A DNA stretch of 42,873 bases from Sphingobium sp. (GTDB taxonomy: Bacteria; Pseudomonadota; Alphaproteobacteria; Sphingomonadales; Sphingomonadaceae): positions 1-42,873 of the forward strand of contig JAHFPU010000003.1 of the NCBI GenBank assembly GCA_023266635.1, read 5' to 3'. The notes beneath the pieces are model-generated. The model had not been told where the DNA came from and did not search any database. It was given only the letters and a program-made list of their open reading frames with translations. Below, piece after piece: positions 4,402-42,423 of this stretch; position 1 is the stretch's first letter; each line of letters begins with the position of its first letter. A program made the position numbers and the translations under genes.

Positions 4402-4426
4402 AACGGACGATATGGGCGCGCGTTCC
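4402..4426 (-). promoter_or_regulatory. EcfG (general stress sigma factor) type promoter
   Basis: On the minus strand GGAAC (4426-4422) is followed by exactly 16 bases and then CGTT (4405-4402). This is an exact match to the GGAAC-N16/17-CGTT consensus known for alphaproteobacterial EcfG sigma factors. It sits at a suitable distance from the glycine-zipper lipoprotein start at 4374, with a good ribosome binding site between. Confidence 0.75.
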
Positions 4427-33311: not shown

Positions 33312-36077
33312 GTGGACCGCGCCTCCCTTTCCGTGGCCGTGCGCCTGTCGCGCCTGGCATGCCTTGCCCTGGCCTATTTCGCTCTGGCCGGGTCGACGCT
33401 GCTGCTTACCCGTTTCGATGGTGGTGTCGCGTTTCTGTGGATTGCGACATCCTTCCTTATTGCCCTGCTTTCCGTATCGCCCAAAGCAGAGTGGGCGAGC
33501 GTGTTGGTCCCATGCGGGATCGGGGCCGCCATCGCCAGCGCGACGTTTGGGCTGGGGCCGGTCGCGGCGGGGCCGATGGCAATCGTTGGCATGGTGGAAG
33601 CCGCCCTGACTGTCCTGATCCTGCGGCGCTGGCTAGGTCATGCAAACTATTTCGAGTCCGTCGAAGGTATCGCGGCCTTTGCGGTCGTGGCGGGTGGTCT
33701 CATTCCTGTTGCCACCGGCATCCCGGGCGCGGCCATCGCCGCCTCGTTGACGGGCGCAGACTATGGCATGAGCCTGCTCCGCTGGGCGACGGCGCATGGC
33801 CTTGGCACCATCATCTTCACACCGATCTTCGTGCTGGTCCTGCGTGGGGAATTGCGGGCGTCGTGGGCGACGGCGGGCACAGCGCGCAAGGCTGAGGGCA
33901 TGGCCCTGCTCACGCTGGTCGGCGTGACGGCGTTCTTCGTTTTTTATCAGACGCATATGCCGCTGCTGTTCCTGCCCATGCTGCCGATGATGGCAGCGAC
34001 GGTGCGGATCGGCCGGATGGGCGCCGCTGGAGCTTCCGTGCTGCTGACCATCGTGGGCGGCGTGCTGACGCTGCGCGGGCATGGCCCCGTCTATCTGATC
34101 CACACGGATGACGGCGGGCGCCTGCAATTCTTCCAATTCTATATCGCCACGGCGACGATGCTGGTGCTGCCCGTCGCTGCCCTGCTGAAGAACCGCAAGG
34201 AGCTGATGGCCCGCCTGATCCAGCAGGAGGCGCGCTACCGCCTGCTCGCCGACCATGCCAGCGACGCCATCCTGAACCTCGCGATCGACGGCACCATACT
34301 CTACGCCTCACCCTCAGTGCGGGAAGTCGGCGGCTTCGAGCCCGAAGAGCTGATCGGCCGCAACGCGCAGGACATGGTGATCGAGGAAGATCGCCAGCGC
34401 GCCATCGAGATACATCGCCGCGCGCTGGCCGAGCCGAGCCGCGCGCTGACGCTGGAATATCGCGCGCAGACCAATCTGGACGGCATCTGCTGGTTCGAGG
34501 CGCGAACACGCGCGATCACGGACGACGGCGGCCATGTGACCGGCGTCGTCATGGCGATCCGCGATGTGTCCGAACGCAAGGAACTGGAGTTCGCGCTGGG
34601 CAAGGCGCGGCATCGGGCGGAGGCGGCAGTGGCCGCAAAATCCGCCTTCCTGGCCAATATGTCGCACGAAATCCGCACGCCGATGAACGGCGTCATCGGC
34701 TTTACGGAAATCCTGCTGGCCGGCAGGCTGACCGGGGAACAGCGCAGGCAGGTCAAGCTGATCGCCGATTCCGGCCAGGCGATGATGCGCCTGCTGAACG
34801 ACATTCTCGACATATCGAAGGTCGAGGCCGGACAGATGAAGGTGCATAGCGAGCTCTTCGACCTGCCCCATGCGCTGCGCGCCTGCCTGAAGCTGATCAC
34901 GCCGGTGGCCGCGCAGAAGGGGCTGGAAGTGGTGCTGGAAATGCCGCTGGACCTGCCGCGCACGGTGTTGGGCGATGGGTTGCGGCTGCGGCAGATCGTC
35001 CTCAACCTGCTGGGCAATGCGGTCAAGTTCACGCAGGGGGGCGGCGTGACGTTGCGGGTCCGGGCGATGGGCAAGACCGATCCGGTCACCGTCATGATCG
35101 AGGTGAAGGATACCGGCATCGGCATTCCGAGTGACCGGCAAGCGGCGATCTTCGAGCAGTTCGTGCAGGCCGACACCTCCGTCGCGCCGCGCTATGGCGG
35201 AACGGGCCTTGGCCTTTCCATCAGCTTGAAGCTGGCGCAGTTGATGGGCGGCGACCTGCAGTTGCAGAGCGAGGTGGGCAAAGGCACGAGCTTCTTCCTG
35301 ACGCTGCCCTTCGCGGTCTCCGACAAGGCGCTGCCCAAATCTTCGGCGGAAAAGCAGGCGGGGCCGGCAAGGAGCGATGCGGCGGACAGGCCGCGCGTTC
35401 TGGTCGCCGAGGATCATGATGTGAACCAGTTGCTGATGGGCGCGATGCTCAAGCAGTTGGGATACCGCTATGGCTTTGTGCAAAATGGGGTTGAGGCGCT
35501 GGCGGAACTGGCGCGCGGAACGGAGACGGGCGATCCCTACGCGATCGTGCTGATGGACATGCAGATGCCCGAGATGGACGGGATCGAGGCGGCGAACCGC
35601 ATCCGCTGGGGCGGGACGACGCCGGAGGACCTGCCGATCCTGTGCCTGACCGCCAATGCCTATGCCGACGATGCCGCGGCGTGCATGAAGGCGGGGATGC
35701 AGGCGCATCTGCCCAAGCCGGTAAAGCTCGCCGATCTCGACGCGGCGTTGCGTCGCTGGCTGCCCTCGGACGGGATCGCCGTGCGGCCCCCGCCCGCGCC
35801 GGTGCTGAGCCCGGAACTGCGCGAGCGCTATCAGTTGCGCAAGGCGGAGGCGCTCGACAAGCTGGAACATGTCGTGCGCACGGGCGCTTTCAGCGAGGCG
35901 GAGCTTGAAGAGGTGCGTATTGCCATGCACAAGTTGGCGGGCACCGCCGGCATGTTCGGCGAGGCGGAACTGGGCAATCTGGCCATCGACCTGGAGGATG
36001 GCATCCGCGATTGGCCGGAGGACGAACGAAAGGCCCGGATCGCGGAAAGCTATCAGGCGATCAAGAAGGCGGGATAG
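33312..36077 (+). CDS. Hybrid sensor histidine kinase (MASE1-PAS-HisKA-HATPase-REC-Hpt)
   Basis: This 921-residue kinase contains a complete phosphorelay. An N-terminal MASE1-type membrane domain (about 1-295, eight or more helices) is followed by PAS (about 305-420), HisKA with His452 in MSHEIRTPMNG, HATPase (about 555-665, with NLLGNAVKFT and GGTGLGLSIS), receiver (about 695-815) with Asp749 in LMDMQMPEMDG, and Hpt (about 830-921) with His873 in MHKLAGTAGM. It starts with GTG. The single-domain receiver gene 55 bp downstream is the obvious acceptor from the Hpt. The signal is unknown; MASE1 often senses small membrane-permeable compounds. Confidence 0.93.
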   Translation: MDRASLSVAVRLSRLACLALAYFALAGSTLLLTRFDGGVAFLWIATSFLIALLSVSPKAEWASVLVPCGIGAAIASATFGLGPVAAGPMAIVGMVEAALTVLILRRWLGHANYFESVEGIAAFAVVAGGLIPVATGIPGAAIAASLTGADYGMSLLRWATAHGLGTIIFTPIFVLVLRGELRASWATAGTARKAEGMALLTLVGVTAFFVFYQTHMPLLFLPMLPMMAATVRIGRMGAAGASVLLTIVGGVLTLRGHGPVYLIHTDDGGRLQFFQFYIATATMLVLPVAALLKNRKELMARLIQQEARYRLLADHASDAILNLAIDGTILYASPSVREVGGFEPEELIGRNAQDMVIEEDRQRAIEIHRRALAEPSRALTLEYRAQTNLDGICWFEARTRAITDDGGHVTGVVMAIRDVSERKELEFALGKARHRAEAAVAAKSAFLANMSHEIRTPMNGVIGFTEILLAGRLTGEQRRQVKLIADSGQAMMRLLNDILDISKVEAGQMKVHSELFDLPHALRACLKLITPVAAQKGLEVVLEMPLDLPRTVLGDGLRLRQIVLNLLGNAVKFTQGGGVTLRVRAMGKTDPVTVMIEVKDTGIGIPSDRQAAIFEQFVQADTSVAPRYGGTGLGLSISLKLAQLMGGDLQLQSEVGKGTSFFLTLPFAVSDKALPKSSAEKQAGPARSDAADRPRVLVAEDHDVNQLLMGAMLKQLGYRYGFVQNGVEALAELARGTETGDPYAIVLMDMQMPEMDGIEAANRIRWGGTTPEDLPILCLTANAYADDAAACMKAGMQAHLPKPVKLADLDAALRRWLPSDGIAVRPPPAPVLSPELRERYQLRKAEALDKLEHVVRTGAFSEAELEEVRIAMHKLAGTAGMFGEAELGNLAIDLEDGIRDWPEDERKARIAESYQAIKKAG

Positions 36078-36132
36078 ATTTCAACGGATCGGGGGCGATC
36101 ACCAAGGGGGAAGAAAGGCGGAAGGACCAAGC

Positions 36133-36504
36133 GTGGCGTATATCATTCTGGCCGACGACGATGAACTGGTGACCGAAATCGCAAGCGCCGCCCTGCGCGG
36201 GGCCGGCCATGTTGTGGGCGTCGTCCATAATGGCGGCGACGCGTGGAAAGCCATCGTCGCCAAGCGACCCGACCTGGTGATCCTAGACTGCAACATGCCC
36301 GAGGCGAGCGGCCTGCTGGTGCTGCGCGAGATGCGCAACCGCATGGACTTGGCCAACACCCCCGTCATGATCCTGACGGGACGGCGCAGCGAAAGCGACG
36401 TGACGCTGGCCATGTATGAAGGCGCGAATGACTATGTGAAAAAGCCATTTGATGCGGACGAACTGGTGTTCCGGGTCGAGGATGTTTTGAACAAGCATCG
36501 GTAG
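36133..36504 (+). CDS. Single-domain response regulator
   Basis: This 123-residue protein consists of a CheY-like receiver only. It has acidic residues Asp8 and Asp9 in ILADDDE, the phosphorylated Asp52 in VILDCNMPEASG, the Thr in MILTG and the lysine in YVKKPFDADE. It starts with GTG after GGAAGG. It lies 55 bp after the hybrid kinase gene and probably accepts phosphate from its Hpt domain. Without an output domain it works through protein binding. A run of eight G follows its stop codon. Confidence 0.9.
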   Translation: MAYIILADDDELVTEIASAALRGAGHVVGVVHNGGDAWKAIVAKRPDLVILDCNMPEASGLLVLREMRNRMDLANTPVMILTGRRSESDVTLAMYEGANDYVKKPFDADELVFRVEDVLNKHR

Positions 36505-38500: not shown

Positions 38501-38612
38501 ACCCCTTTGAAGAAGTGATGCGACATTTTGCGCGGTTTGGCGAGTGTGACTGCGTAAAGTGCGAGATGACGGCAGCTATTGGGGTGAGCGATGTTCTCTA
38601 TCGGCCCTTGCT

Positions 38613-38693
38613 CGTCATCCCAGCGCAGGCTGGGATCTCCTGAGGCTTAGTTGGACCTGGCGGCCCGAGACCCCAGCCTGCGCTGGGGTGACG
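38613..38693. repeat. REP-like inverted repeat pair
   Basis: CGTCATCCCAGCGCAGGCTGGGATCTC (first arm, from 38613) and GAGACCCCAGCCTGCGCTGGGGTGACG (second arm, to 38693) are imperfect inverted copies, and each is itself a hairpin (CCCAGC/GCTGGG). This pattern is a frequent intergenic element in sphingomonads. It sits between two leftward genes. Confidence 0.7.
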
Positions 38694-38755
38694 AAATCGT
38701 TGCCGGCCCTCTTGTTACTCCGCTCGTTGTCCCGGAAATGTACAGGAGTGGCGCC

Positions 38756-39790
38756 TCAAAGCCCCCCCACCAGGGACACACGCGTCCCCGGGCCGCCTGT
38801 TTCAAATTCTATCACGGTGCGCAGCGTGTCCGCCATGGCGCGCACGATCTTGGAGCCGAGGCCCGTGCCATGCGCGACGCCGTCGGCGGGCATGCCGCAG
38901 CCGTCATCCTCGACGCGCAGGCGGAAGCTGTCGGGCGTCTCGCGGCTCAGCATGATCCGCACGTCGCCGGGGGTGGCGGCGTCATAGGCGTATTTGCAGG
39001 CGTTGCTGACCAGTTCGTTGACGATGATGCCCACGGCCACCGCCTTGTCGGTCGCGAGCTTCACCGGTTCGGCAAACAGTTGCAGATTGCGGCGCGACAG
39101 CGGGGTCGACCAGGTCTGTTCGAGTTCGCCGATCAGCGCGCCGAGATATTCCTCCATGTCCACGGTCTCGACGTCGTCGGAGGTGTAGAGGCGTTTGTGG
39201 ACCTGCGCGATCGCCGCGATCCGTCGTTGGGTATCCTCCAGCGCCGCACGGGCATTGCCATCCACCAGGGCGCGGGCCTGCATGTGCACGAAGGCGGAGA
39301 CGAGTTGCAGGCTGTTGGCGACGCGATGGTTGACCTCGCCCAGCAGGGCCTGGAGCCGTTCGTTGCTGGCGCGCAGCTGTTCTTCGGCCTGCGCCTTGCC
39401 CGCGCGTAGGCGGACGGCGGCGAGCGCCTCGTCGATGGCGCTGGCGAGCAGGTCGAAGAAATCCTCGCCGACCGTCTTCACCACATAATCGACGGCGCCA
39501 GCTTTGAGTGCGGCGACGGCGATGCGGCTTTCCTCGGAACCGGTGACGTAGATGACGGGGGGAGCGGAGGGCAGGTCACGCAACTGCGCCAGGGTCGCGA
39601 GGCCATCCTGACCCGGCATATAATGATCGACGGCAACGAGATCATAGGCCATCTGCGCGGCCATCGCCACGCCCTCCGGCCCGCTTTCCGCCAGATCCAC
39701 GCGATAGCCGCGCCGTTCCAGCACGCGGCGGGTCAATCGGCGCAAACCCTCGTCATCGTCAATATAGAGGATATGCGGGGCGTCGCTCAT
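38756..39790 (-). CDS. Receiver-HRxxN histidine kinase, PakF-like (general stress response)
   Basis: This 344-residue soluble kinase has an N-terminal receiver (about 5-120, phosphorylated Asp55 in LVAVDHYMPG), and a HisKA_2/HWE-type core with His155 in EVNHRVANSLQL followed by a HATPase (NELVSNACKYAY, GLGSKIVRAM). No sensor domain exists. This is the architecture of PakF of Sphingomonas melonis Fr1, which phosphorylates the anti-anti-sigma response regulator PhyR after its receiver is phosphorylated by KipF. Here the CHASE3 kinase in the same operon would play the KipF part. The ATG at 39790 shares a base with the stop codon of the upstream receiver gene (TGATG). Orthology is inferred from domain order and neighbours. 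Confidence 0.85.
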   Translation of the reverse strand: MSDAPHILYIDDDEGLRRLTRRVLERRGYRVDLAESGPEGVAMAAQMAYDLVAVDHYMPGQDGLATLAQLRDLPSAPPVIYVTGSEESRIAVAALKAGAVDYVVKTVGEDFFDLLASAIDEALAAVRLRAGKAQAEEQLRASNERLQALLGEVNHRVANSLQLVSAFVHMQARALVDGNARAALEDTQRRIAAIAQVHKRLYTSDDVETVDMEEYLGALIGELEQTWSTPLSRRNLQLFAEPVKLATDKAVAVGIIVNELVSNACKYAYDAATPGDVRIMLSRETPDSFRLRVEDDGCGMPADGVAHGTGLGSKIVRAMADTLRTVIEFETGGPGTRVSLVGGL

Positions 39791-40233
39791 CAATCGGTTT
39801 CGATATCCGGCACCTGGATGACCGACAGGAAGAGGCCGAGCTGCTTGATGGCTTCGGCGAAGCTCTCATAATTTACGGGCTTGGTGATGTAGACGTTGCA
39901 GCCGAGATCGTAGCAGCGCTGGATCTCGATCTTGTAGTCGGTCGTGGTGAGGACGACGACGGGGGTCCGCTTTAGCGCCCCTTCGCTCTTGATCTTCGCC
40001 AAGATGTCCGTGCCGCTCATGTCGGGCAGATTGAGGTCGAGCAGGATCAGCGCGGGGCCGTTCAAAGCCGGGCCGCTTTCATCCTCGTACAGATATTTGA
40101 GCGCCGATGTGCCGTCCACGAAATGCCGGATCGCATTCGATATGCCCGCGCGGCGGATGTTCTTTTCGATCAGACGAGCATGACCCTCATCATCCTCGAT
40201 CATCACGATATTAACCGGCTGTTGACCGTTCAT
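39790..40233 (-). CDS. Single-domain response regulator between the CHASE3 and PakF-like kinases
   Basis: This 147-residue protein is a receiver of the Rcp1/bacteriophytochrome-partner type. It has the acidic pair in MIEDDEGHARLIEKNI, phosphorylated Asp66 in ILLDLNLPDMSG, Thr in VLTTTD and lysine in YITKPVNYESF. The start ATG overlaps the CHASE3 kinase stop codon by 4 bases and its stop codon overlaps the PakF-like start by 1 base, so the three proteins are translationally coupled. It may act as an intermediate or a competing phosphate sink in the relay (inference). Confidence 0.9.
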   Translation of the reverse strand: MNGQQPVNIVMIEDDEGHARLIEKNIRRAGISNAIRHFVDGTSALKYLYEDESGPALNGPALILLDLNLPDMSGTDILAKIKSEGALKRTPVVVLTTTDYKIEIQRCYDLGCNVYITKPVNYESFAEAIKQLGLFLSVIQVPDIETD

Positions 40234-41741
40234 GCGTCTTTCTCCCCCGTGCCGGCGAATATGGCCGGCAAATTCACCTCAAACACTGCGCCCTCGCCCA
40301 ATCGGGAGGACAGAGTGATCGTTCCGCCGAGGCGATAAGCCAATGCGCGGACATGCGCCAGCCCGATCCCTTCACCCGGCTGATCCTGAACGCCGGACCG
40401 CCGAAACAGGTCGAACACGCGCTCATGATCCTTTGGATCAATTCCGCGGCCATTGTCCTTGATCTGGTATAAGACGCGCACGCCCTGCCGCCTGCCCGTG
40501 ACTTCCACCAGACCCGGCCGGCCGGGCTGCAGATATTTGACGGCATTCTCGACCAGGTTCGACGCGATCTGCTCAACGGCCACGCGGTCACTGACCAGAT
40601 GGGGCAGGTCTTCGGCGATGGTCACGATCGCGCCCACCTCATCCGTACGGTGGCGCAGCGTGTCGGCGACGCCCTGGAACATCGCGGCCATGTCCAGCGC
40701 CTCCGGCGTGATCGTACGGCGGCCTTCGCGCGACAGGCGCAGGATGGCGTTGATCAGGCGGTCCATCTTTTGCGTCGAGGTGCGGATGAAGCCGATCGCT
40801 TCGGGCAGGTCCTCCCGCGCGGCGACGCGGGCTTCCTCCGTGACGAGGCCGGGCGCTTCCACCTCCGCCCGGTCGATCAATGTGCGGAGCGGCGTGGCGG
40901 CGGCGTCAAGTTCGGACGTGAAGCCCATCACATTGACCAGCGGCGAGCGCAGGTCATGGGACACGATATAGGCGAAGCGCTGGATTTCGTCATTCGCGCG
41001 CTGGAGGTCGATGGTGCGGACACGCACGGCCCCCTCCAGATCCTCATTCAGCAGGCGCAGCTCATCACGCGACTGCATGAGGTTAAAGGTATAGCGCCGG
41101 ATCGTCGCGACTGACCCGATCGCGACGAGAACAAGGAGAACGCCGCCAATGGCGAGCGCCCAGAAGAACAGGTGGATGCTCGTCTGCTGGGCAACAAGGC
41201 GCTCTCCAAGGAGCCTTTGCTCTTCGGCAAACATGCGGGCCGTCACCTGCCTGATCCGCTGACCGAAGTTGGCCGAGCCGGCGTCGCCCGACCGTTGGCC
41301 GACGCCGGTAATGTGTCCAGCGTCTGCCTGCGCCATCGTGAAAAGCAGCCGGGTATCGAGTTGGCCGGAGAGCCATTTGAGCTGCGGGATAAGCGCCTGC
41401 TGACGCTGATTGTCTCTGGTCAGCGCATCGACCTGCCCGATCGCCTTGGCGAGATCGCCGCGCGCCTGCGCATATTCCACGCGCAATCCATGGCGGCGAT
41501 CAAGCAGATACCCCCGGCGCGCAAAACGCATTCCCTGCACGGCGGCATCCACCCTGCTGATGCCGCGCTCGACCTCATAGGTGTGCACGAGCCAGATGGT
41601 GTGCTCGCGGTTGCGCTGCACCGCCAGGGCGGAGGCCAGACCGGCGGCAAAAATGGCAAGAAACCCGAGGCTGACGAAAGCGATGACGATCTGGCCGAAA
41701 TGCTTGTCTTTATTCAGCGAGAACAGTGTCGGGGCCTTCAT
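40230..41741 (-). CDS. CHASE3-domain sensor histidine kinase, KipF-like
   Basis: This 503-residue kinase has a first membrane helix (about 16-40), a periplasmic CHASE3-type helical domain (about 42-188), a second helix (about 190-213), a coiled linker, and HisKA with His262 in SHDLRSPLVN, then HATPase (about 380-495, with NLVENAVKYL and IGLAHVRALA). In S. melonis Fr1 the CHASE3 kinase KipF senses salts and activates PakF through its receiver; this gene has the same architecture and the same PakF-like neighbour. AAGGATTCGAAG precedes the ATG. It is first in a three-gene operon. Confidence 0.88.
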   Translation of the reverse strand: MKAPTLFSLNKDKHFGQIVIAFVSLGFLAIFAAGLASALAVQRNREHTIWLVHTYEVERGISRVDAAVQGMRFARRGYLLDRRHGLRVEYAQARGDLAKAIGQVDALTRDNQRQQALIPQLKWLSGQLDTRLLFTMAQADAGHITGVGQRSGDAGSANFGQRIRQVTARMFAEEQRLLGERLVAQQTSIHLFFWALAIGGVLLVLVAIGSVATIRRYTFNLMQSRDELRLLNEDLEGAVRVRTIDLQRANDEIQRFAYIVSHDLRSPLVNVMGFTSELDAAATPLRTLIDRAEVEAPGLVTEEARVAAREDLPEAIGFIRTSTQKMDRLINAILRLSREGRRTITPEALDMAAMFQGVADTLRHRTDEVGAIVTIAEDLPHLVSDRVAVEQIASNLVENAVKYLQPGRPGLVEVTGRRQGVRVLYQIKDNGRGIDPKDHERVFDLFRRSGVQDQPGEGIGLAHVRALAYRLGGTITLSSRLGEGAVFEVNLPAIFAGTGEKDA

Positions 41742-41810
41742 CTTCGAATCCTTAGGGCAAGGCCATCTTCATGGGAAAGCATATTCCGCGGGCAGCAATC
41801 GCGCGGCTTA

Positions 41811-42011
41811 TCAGTCGTCGAGATCGAGAAAGGCCACGACATCGTTTTCCGTGGCCAGATACAGTCCGGCTTGCACATCTTCCGGCTGCTGCGCCCCGAT
41901 CTGCAGCGCTTCGCTAAGGGGGCCGTAGAACAAGGTAGAGGCGGAACCGCCCTCGCCGGCGTCATCCAGGAAATAGAGCCGCACGGAGGCCTGATCGAAG
42001 GTCGTTCGCAT
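41811..42011 (-). CDS. Hypothetical small acidic protein, 66 residues
   Basis: I do not recognise this soluble protein. It starts MRTTFDQASVRLYFLDDAGE and ends NDVVAFLDLDD; it is strongly acidic and has alternating hydrophobic strands, consistent with a small beta-rich fold. ATG 42011 is preferred over ATG 42047, which would add residues unlike the rest. It lies 69 bp upstream of the KipF-like gene on the same strand, so it may be co-transcribed, but no link to signalling is shown by sequence. Confidence 0.6.
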   Translation of the reverse strand: MRTTFDQASVRLYFLDDAGEGGSASTLFYGPLSEALQIGAQQPEDVQAGLYLATENDVVAFLDLDD

Positions 42012-42177: not shown

Positions 42178-42423
42178 ATGACCATCATGACATTTCCAGA
42201 TCTTATCGACCTGCGGGACAGCCCGGTGGTCACTGTCGATGGGCTTGAGCCGCATGTCGGCGAAAGCTGGCGCGAATATAACGACCGCGCGATTGCGTGG
42301 ATCGAGAGCGATCCGGATTTCGGCGTGGGCGAGACCCGCTATCCGCTGCGCAGGCTGGTCGCCGAAACCCTCGCCTATCTGTCCGGCATGGCCGCCGTCA
42401 TTGGGGCGACGTTGTTCTGGTAA
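42178..42423 (+). CDS. Hypothetical protein, 81 residues
   Basis: This small protein has an acidic soluble N-terminal part with WREYNDRAIAWIESDPDFG and a C-terminal hydrophobic segment (about 63-81, TLAYLSGMAAVIGATLFW) that could be a single membrane helix. AGAGGGGG precedes the ATG at 42178. I do not recognise the family. It is divergent from the acidic 66-residue gene and precedes the phosphate transporter gene by 94 bp. Confidence 0.7.
   Translation: MTIMTFPDLIDLRDSPVVTVDGLEPHVGESWREYNDRAIAWIESDPDFGVGETRYPLRRLVAETLAYLSGMAAVIGATLFW

Follow-up and report, generated by a model that had tools for sequence, protein, structure and literature searches.

Does the single-domain receiver encoded between two histidine kinases in a Sphingobium genome add a new control point to a stress pathway, or does it belong to that pathway as a matter of course? 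The locus in question lies on the minus strand, at positions 38756 to 41741, of a 42,873-nt stretch of DNA (contig JAHFPU010000003.1; the whole of this stretch is called the window here), and encodes a KipF-like membrane kinase, a receiver and a PakF-like kinase. An initial annotation had taken the receiver to be an extra element inserted between the two kinases, which is contradicted by our comparison, since the receiver is present in every close copy found, Sphingomonas melonis AS2.3 included; it is a constant core of the module, not an addition to it. The KipF-PakF pathway of S. melonis Fr1 was reportedly described by Kaczmarczyk et al. in 2015 as a two-tiered kinase pathway with two members. 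The locus is an ordinary, well-formed copy of this known kinase-pair system, and a pathway reportedly made up of two kinases thus has a constant third, better-conserved member.

Occurrence of the three-gene module

A search of named genomes for PakF, which used peptide patterns taken from an intact PakF and of which the best 80 of 182 matches were kept, gave 77 loci, and 12 of these (L076 to L087), distant matches without a receiver of this family, were excluded. KipF, receiver and PakF stand together in this order in all of the 65 close loci (L011 to L075; PakF 56 to 89% identical), a recurrence of gene order that is far beyond chance. Most of them belong to Sphingomonas and its relatives (Sphingopyxis, Sphingobium, Novosphingobium and others), and the remainder include Aurantimonas/Aureimonas/Jiella and Phenylobacterium/Caulobacteraceae, together with one locus labelled Arthrobacter (L032) that is probably misnamed. 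S. melonis, which carries the same operon (L031), is represented by strain AS2.3 and not by Fr1.

A less biased test, profile searches of 199 genomes from the same family as the window, matched the receiver in 21 genomes (E 1e-35), full-length PakF in 21 (1e-70; one additional match, to the kinase core only, in G318, was dropped) and KipF in 21 (1e-90). The identical 21 genomes, from 18 genera, match for all three genes, which keep their order on a single strand, and no domain-to-domain gap exceeds 59 nt. In three further genomes from the same genus as the window, the profile searches matched none of receiver, PakF and KipF, so the module appears to be gained and lost as a whole.

At the level of the class, full-length PakF (>350 bits) was found in 12 of 289 genomes and the whole module in 9 of these 12. 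G203 has the module split into a KipF-receiver pair (L120) and a receiver-PakF pair (L122), each with its own receiver copy, along with a third, solitary copy (L121) that has diverged in helix alpha1 and in the C-terminal arm; the PakF of this genome bears an added C-terminal receiver. PakF has neither partner beside it in G262 (L118) and G147 (L119). Loci L123 and L124 were left out as a different pair of receiver-domain (REC) kinases (linker of 40, Lys replaced by Glu), and L146 lies near a contig edge, with the position of a receiver outside the sequence.

Organization and conservation of the genes

The first gene (40230..41741, minus strand) encodes a 503-aa KipF-like sensor histidine kinase in which Pfam detects CHASE3 (E 2.3e-13), HisKA (with H262) and HATPase_c. 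Its two membrane spans, seen as hydrophobic peaks that begin at residues 18 and 191, lie on either side of CHASE3 (residues 48 to 181; 41199..41600, minus strand), and H262 is intact in the context SHDLRSP, which is the same in 65/65 close loci. The second gene (39790..40233, minus strand) encodes a 147-aa single-domain receiver of the Rcp1/AgR (bacteriophytochrome response regulator, BRR) superfamily, with Response_reg as its sole Pfam domain (E 4.4e-18), a phospho-acceptor at D66 and a conserved C-terminal arm at residues 132 to 142, in a numbering that begins with the start Met (which is absent from alignment A1 and the AlphaFold model, where numbers are one lower). The third (38756..39790, minus strand) encodes a PakF-like kinase of 344 aa, counted from the ATG, with Response_reg (2.4e-25), HisKA_2 (4.8e-23) and HATPase_c; its motif NHRVAN contains H155, and D11-13, D55 of the receiver domain, T83, K105, H155 and N159 are intact. 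The KipF stop and the receiver start overlap by 4 nt in ATGA (40230..40233, minus strand), and at the next junction, TGATG (39790..39792, minus strand), the final base of the receiver stop TGA doubles as the A of the PakF ATG (39790), a 1-nt overlap, with an in-frame TTG (39793) one codon ahead of that ATG. From these overlaps, the three genes probably share one mRNA. Coordinates and Pfam domains thus agree with the initial annotation in gene set, order and overlapping stop and start codons, as does the residue check for the phosphorylation residues of the middle receiver (D14/D15, D66, the LTTTD threonines and K118), all of which are intact.

In 74 complete sets, the receiver is better conserved than either kinase, with a mean pairwise identity of 81% against 62% in PakF and 53% in KipF. 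The three proteins give concordant distance matrices (Mantel rho 0.83 to 0.88, permutation p 0.001), with rho 0.83 to 0.84 between the receiver and the kinases. Within KipF, the CHASE3 domain is the fastest-changing of the segments measured (33% mean pairwise identity, 7/134 positions invariant), compared with 76% and 45/95 for the dimerization and histidine phosphotransfer (DHp) domain, a pattern that suggests a fixed output and a varied sensing part.

Helix alpha1 is the usual kinase-docking face of receivers. Across 66 sequences (the window plus the 65 loci), alpha1 of the middle receiver is invariant at 14/14 positions, versus 1/14 for alpha1 of the PakF receiver. Invariant positions also fill the beta3-alpha3 loop (7/7), TKPV (4/4) and most of the arm, LGLFLSVIQVP (9/11), while alpha2 (2/10) and alpha3 (5/12) are variable and the region alpha4-beta5 plus arm is strongly conserved; the limits of these elements were set by hand and agree roughly with later models. 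Since 23 Rcp1-like receivers from 20 loci outside the module have a mean pairwise identity of only 33% in alpha1 (42% overall), the frozen alpha1 looks like a property of the module.

Identity of the middle receiver

The best match of the receiver is 3HEB, a receiver of Rhodospirillum rubrum (234.6 bits; 68% identity in the fold match), followed by RtBRR, AtBRR, RcpA, RcpB and Rcp1 at 82 to 101 bits. By sequence and fold, it belongs with the phytochrome-type (Rcp1/AgR, BRR) single receivers, and it is a distant relative of phytochrome response regulators. 3HEB shares alpha1 and the arm region with it and scores in the range of the module receivers (about 235 bits against this receiver family, versus about 90 for AtBRR). 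The neighbouring kinase, however, is a CHASE3-type KipF orthologue in 65/65 loci rather than the phytochrome kinase that partners Rcp1/AgR-type receivers. A bacteriophytochrome with an HWE kinase and a C-terminal receiver is encoded elsewhere in the same genome (L142, 2812-5394).

The arm motif of this superfamily is said to be hFWAhL, from work by Baker et al. in 2016; where that motif aligns, the arm of the middle receiver reads LFLSVI, with WA replaced and the hydrophobic pattern kept. The tail (model residues 134 to 146) has a predicted local distance difference test score (pLDDT) below 50 in the AlphaFold monomer model, and a tail modelled with such low confidence yet so conserved fits a dimer or partner contact. 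The homologous AtRR1 (AgR) homodimerises arm-in-arm through this extension (PMC8292422; this and the other papers given by PMC number are cited from excerpts).

Two kinds of single-domain receiver are described for the alphaproteobacterial stress network, namely the relay hubs SdrG/MrrA (FAT GUY) and the phosphate sink LovR (PMC5898713, PMC5964349). An SdrG-like relay was considered for the middle receiver and rejected, as both the window and alignment A1 have PVVVLTTTD and not the PFxFATG[G/Y] of SdrG/MrrA. Of the 20 loci with distant receiver relatives, counted by hand from a table with flanks no longer than 1.5 kb, 16 have a kinase immediately upstream on the same strand and 12 have a protein with a receiver immediately downstream, so the order kinase, Rcp1-like receiver, REC-output appears to be a widespread arrangement of which the module is one stable case. 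The operon of BphP1, AgR and ExsG in Agrobacterium/Rhizobium NT-26 likewise combines a sensor kinase, an Rcp1-type receiver and a REC-kinase, and BphP1 phosphorylates both receivers of its cluster; it differs in having a phytochrome sensor instead of CHASE3, an HWE kinase instead of HisKA_2, an inhibitory receiver and the additional ExsF (PMC1552090, PMC3899027). The excerpts of the literature searched, which excluded the primary Fr1 papers (2014, 2015), contain no description of the middle receiver, and none of the 20 papers listed for KipF, out of 2,270, concerns this kinase.

Probable control of PakF by its receiver domain

The top NCBIfam match of the PakF kinase core is PhyK, at 119 bits, far under the model cut-off of 750. 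The core scores 81.5 bits with HisKA_2 and 29.8 with HWE and adjoins a CHASE3 kinase, and is therefore not an ExsG-type HWE kinase; its orthologues likewise stand next to CHASE3 kinases, so that the closest homologues of this kinase are not bacteriophytochrome-type partners.

The phosphorylation pocket of the PakF receiver (three acids, D55, Thr/Ser and Lys) is intact in the window, in 65/65 loci (63 with Thr, 2 with Ser) and in 11/11 further PakFs, 10 of which adjoin a receiver while L146 ends at a contig edge. It is broken in both PakFs that lack KipF and the receiver, by DAN and D55E in L118 and by DNG in L119, an association of pocket loss with partner loss (Fisher p 3e-4) that ignores relatedness and rests on two cases. 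KipF was not found in either genome, G262 or G147, at E 1e-40 with all candidates scored, and the receiver was found in neither at E 1e-20 with up to 13 candidates scored per genome, nor beside PakF. The decay of the pocket in both PakFs without KipF supports KipF as the donor of the PakF receiver.

In the structural model of PakF, alpha5 of the receiver continues as one helix into DHp (residues 110 to 174), and the top fold match is LvrB with a phosphorylated receiver (8vc9; E 7.6e-19, 23% identity). In the LvrA-LvrB system of Leptospira, a REC-controlled kinase is likewise driven by a partner kinase, although LvrA, unlike KipF, carries a receiver within the same chain; phosphorylation of the LvrB receiver gives rise to a signalling-helix coiled coil and releases the catalytic domains, and the linker lengths of REC-controlled kinases favour multiples of seven (PMC5863495, PMC13269768). 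In 78 PakF orthologues besides the window, the distance from K105 to H155 agrees with this rule: 73 have 50 residues and 5 have 57, exactly one heptad more. The non-orthologous REC-kinases L123 and L124 have a linker of 40. KipF has a similar linker spacing, with 46 residues in 69 proteins, 53 in one and 39 in another; the remaining 3 KipFs of 74, without a SHDLRSP match, fall outside this count.

The start of PakF varies. In 10 of the 65 loci, L072 among them, none of ATG, GTG and TTG occurs in the PakF frame ahead of the conserved receiver core; alternative starts at the receiver stop codon are CTG in 8 and ATT/CTG in 2, including S. melonis AS2.3. If CTG or ATT/CTG are starts, PakF might be made by coupled weak re-initiation, with the receiver in excess.

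Probable link to the general stress response

The genome is a 3.0-Mb draft, 78% complete, in which PhyR, NepR (below the Pfam cut-off) and a PhyT-like HisKA_2 protein without a detectable ATPase domain are encoded side by side (L138, contig C188), an arrangement that the phyR-phyT locus of S. melonis resembles (PMC5898713). Four other HisKA_2/HWE proteins and a separate FATGG single-domain receiver (L148) occur in the same genome. In S. melonis, KipF phosphorylates PakF, as cited in PMC5863495; in vitro, PhyR and SdrG are substrates of PakF and of the Paks generally (PMC5898713); and single-domain receivers with neighbouring gene numbers, PkrB and PkrD, are associated with PakB and PakD (PMC6599016). 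Our locus thus shares with the S. melonis Fr1 KipF-PakF system a CHASE3 membrane kinase, a soluble REC-HisKA_2 kinase and PhyR/PhyT-like genes, the operon compared being that of AS2.3 and not of Fr1. The proposal of the initial annotation that a KipF/PakF-type pair feeds PhyR is accordingly likely, backed as it is by domain architecture, by the S. melonis AS2.3 operon and by the PhyR, NepR and PhyT-like genes.

Control of the operon itself by EcfG was considered and dropped. No EcfG-type promoter lies near the operon (the window has one match, at 4402, against a chance mean of 0.8), and matches within 400 nt upstream of KipF are few across the 65 loci (forward in 2/65, reverse in 3/65).

Proposed mechanism and alternative explanations

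On balance, we think it probable, by a modest degree, that the KipF-receiver-PakF module feeds PhyR, that KipF phosphorylates both receivers and that the middle receiver partitions phosphate. Every phosphotransfer step in this scheme, the direction of PakF regulation and the receiver preference are what we infer: (i) KipF would sense a salt- or heat-type input via CHASE3 and its membrane part and autophosphorylate on H262; (ii) it would then phosphorylate the single-domain receiver on D66 and the PakF receiver on D55; (iii) phosphorylation of PakF would let the alpha5-signalling helix assemble into a heptad-phased coiled coil and release the ATPase domain, as in LvrB; (iv) PakF would autophosphorylate on H155 and hand the phosphate to PhyR and/or an SdrG-type regulator; and (v) the middle receiver, most likely the kinetically preferred acceptor of KipF and dimeric via its conserved C-terminal arm, would partition phosphate and determine at what threshold PakF responds and how it resets; it may have a separate output as well. 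Competition for phosphate by the middle receiver, one of two roles named in the initial annotation, is possible. The other, a relay from the receiver to PakF, was judged weak and rejected on general two-component chemistry, as direct phosphate transfer from one receiver to another does not occur.

Several observations weigh against this scheme or limit its reach. The 65 loci lean to close, intact copies, as a result of the intact-PakF patterns and the retention of the best of 182, and the absences in the 199 family genomes hold at the sensitivity of searches limited to the top candidates of each genome (receiver up to 19, PakF 10, KipF 7). When class-level receivers are included (77 in total), the invariant positions drop to 11/14 in alpha1 and 4/11 in the arm. 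The drifting alpha1 of the PakF receiver could mean poor or different docking by KipF, and the frozen surface of the middle receiver may exceed the needs of a sink, which could point to an independent output. Confidence in the PakF model is low in DHp (pLDDT 57 to 66 over residues 141 to 210), and the whole-chain template modelling (TM) score with LvrB is low, 0.32, presumably from differing domain placement. The sign of PakF control could also differ, since receiver phosphorylation inhibits ExsG, the second kinase of the BphP1-AgR-ExsG system (PMC3899027), the nearest biochemically studied three-gene relative. The stress-response role follows from orthology only, with the Fr1 sequences outside the comparison. 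Position H+4 in kinases such as KipF is usually Thr or Asn; it is Ser in KipF, so phosphatase activity of KipF is uncertain.

The main rival to the partition of phosphate is a branched pathway, in which KipF acts through PakF on the stress response while the receiver, separately phosphorylated as a diffusible arm-dimer, acts elsewhere (e.g., on motility or surface traits) with little effect on PakF. We regard it as possible but doubtful. It would account for the strongly conserved alpha4-beta5 and arm and for a tail whose low confidence as a monomer points to a partner or dimer, and it has a precedent in BphP1, which phosphorylates AgR and ExsG, with ExsG handing phosphate on to ExsF and not to AgR (PMC3899027). 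The solitary receiver copy of G203 can also be read this way, although it has diverged in alpha1 and arm; moreover, in that genome PakF and KipF each have a receiver copy next to them, which suggests a tie to PakF as well, and no receiver match (E 1e-35) was found without KipF and PakF among the 199 family genomes. We hold, just as tentatively, a reading of KipF-PakF as a three-protein device in which the receiver is the primary, surface-frozen partner of KipF and the PakF receiver a low-affinity secondary acceptor once the receiver pool is filled; the receiver, in excess if the PakF start is weak, would then set an all-or-none threshold, or would be the main output of the CHASE3 sensor.

That the module is wired to a regulator other than PhyR seems unlikely. 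Its patchy occurrence within the genus, where the three other genomes lack a match, and the missing EcfG-type promoter would agree with another target for the PakF-like kinase, but its HisKA_2 core is nearest to the PhyK model, PhyR and PhyT-like genes are present in the genome, and PakF of S. melonis is active on PhyR/SdrG (PMC5898713). We give slightly less credence still to direct binding of the receiver to PakF, as a REC-REC heterodimer or through an arm contact, in place of phosphate competition. The arm, 9/11 invariant and yet of low confidence as a monomer, the receiver-PakF pair of G203 with no KipF adjoining, and a PakF start at or near the receiver stop in most loci (with 10/65 lacking ATG, GTG or TTG before the core) could all be taken to favour such contact; the arm of AtRR1 (AgR), however, serves homodimerisation (PMC8292422). 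Finally, a receiver newly inserted between kipF and pakF as an added control point is highly improbable: its only support is how the locus looks in one genome, whereas the receiver is found in 65/65 loci, S. melonis AS2.3 among them, and in 21/21 matching family genomes, and its distances track those of the kinases. We therefore reject it, unless Fr1 differs from AS2.3. Shared inheritance, the frozen docking helix and the natural loss cases make the preference of KipF for the receiver or for PakF, and the effect of losing the receiver, directly testable in S. melonis.

Neighbouring sequences

Two small open reading frames (ORFs) lie upstream of the operon, at 41814-42011 (minus strand) and, divergently, at 42178-42423 (plus strand, 81 aa), and a further one at 41738-41965 (minus strand). 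Of 85 loci searched, only the nearest, L011 (Sphingobium phenoxybenzoativorans), gave matches to the upstream small ORFs, which were thus rejected as members of the module. Directly downstream of PakF, at 38612-38694, a 28-nt inverted repeat (93% complementary, arms 27 nt apart) resembles a repeat element or a terminator. At 33312-36504, the window also encodes a MASE1-PAS hybrid kinase with a receiver and a histidine phosphotransfer (Hpt) domain (921 aa) and, after it, a single-domain receiver (about 36112-36504).

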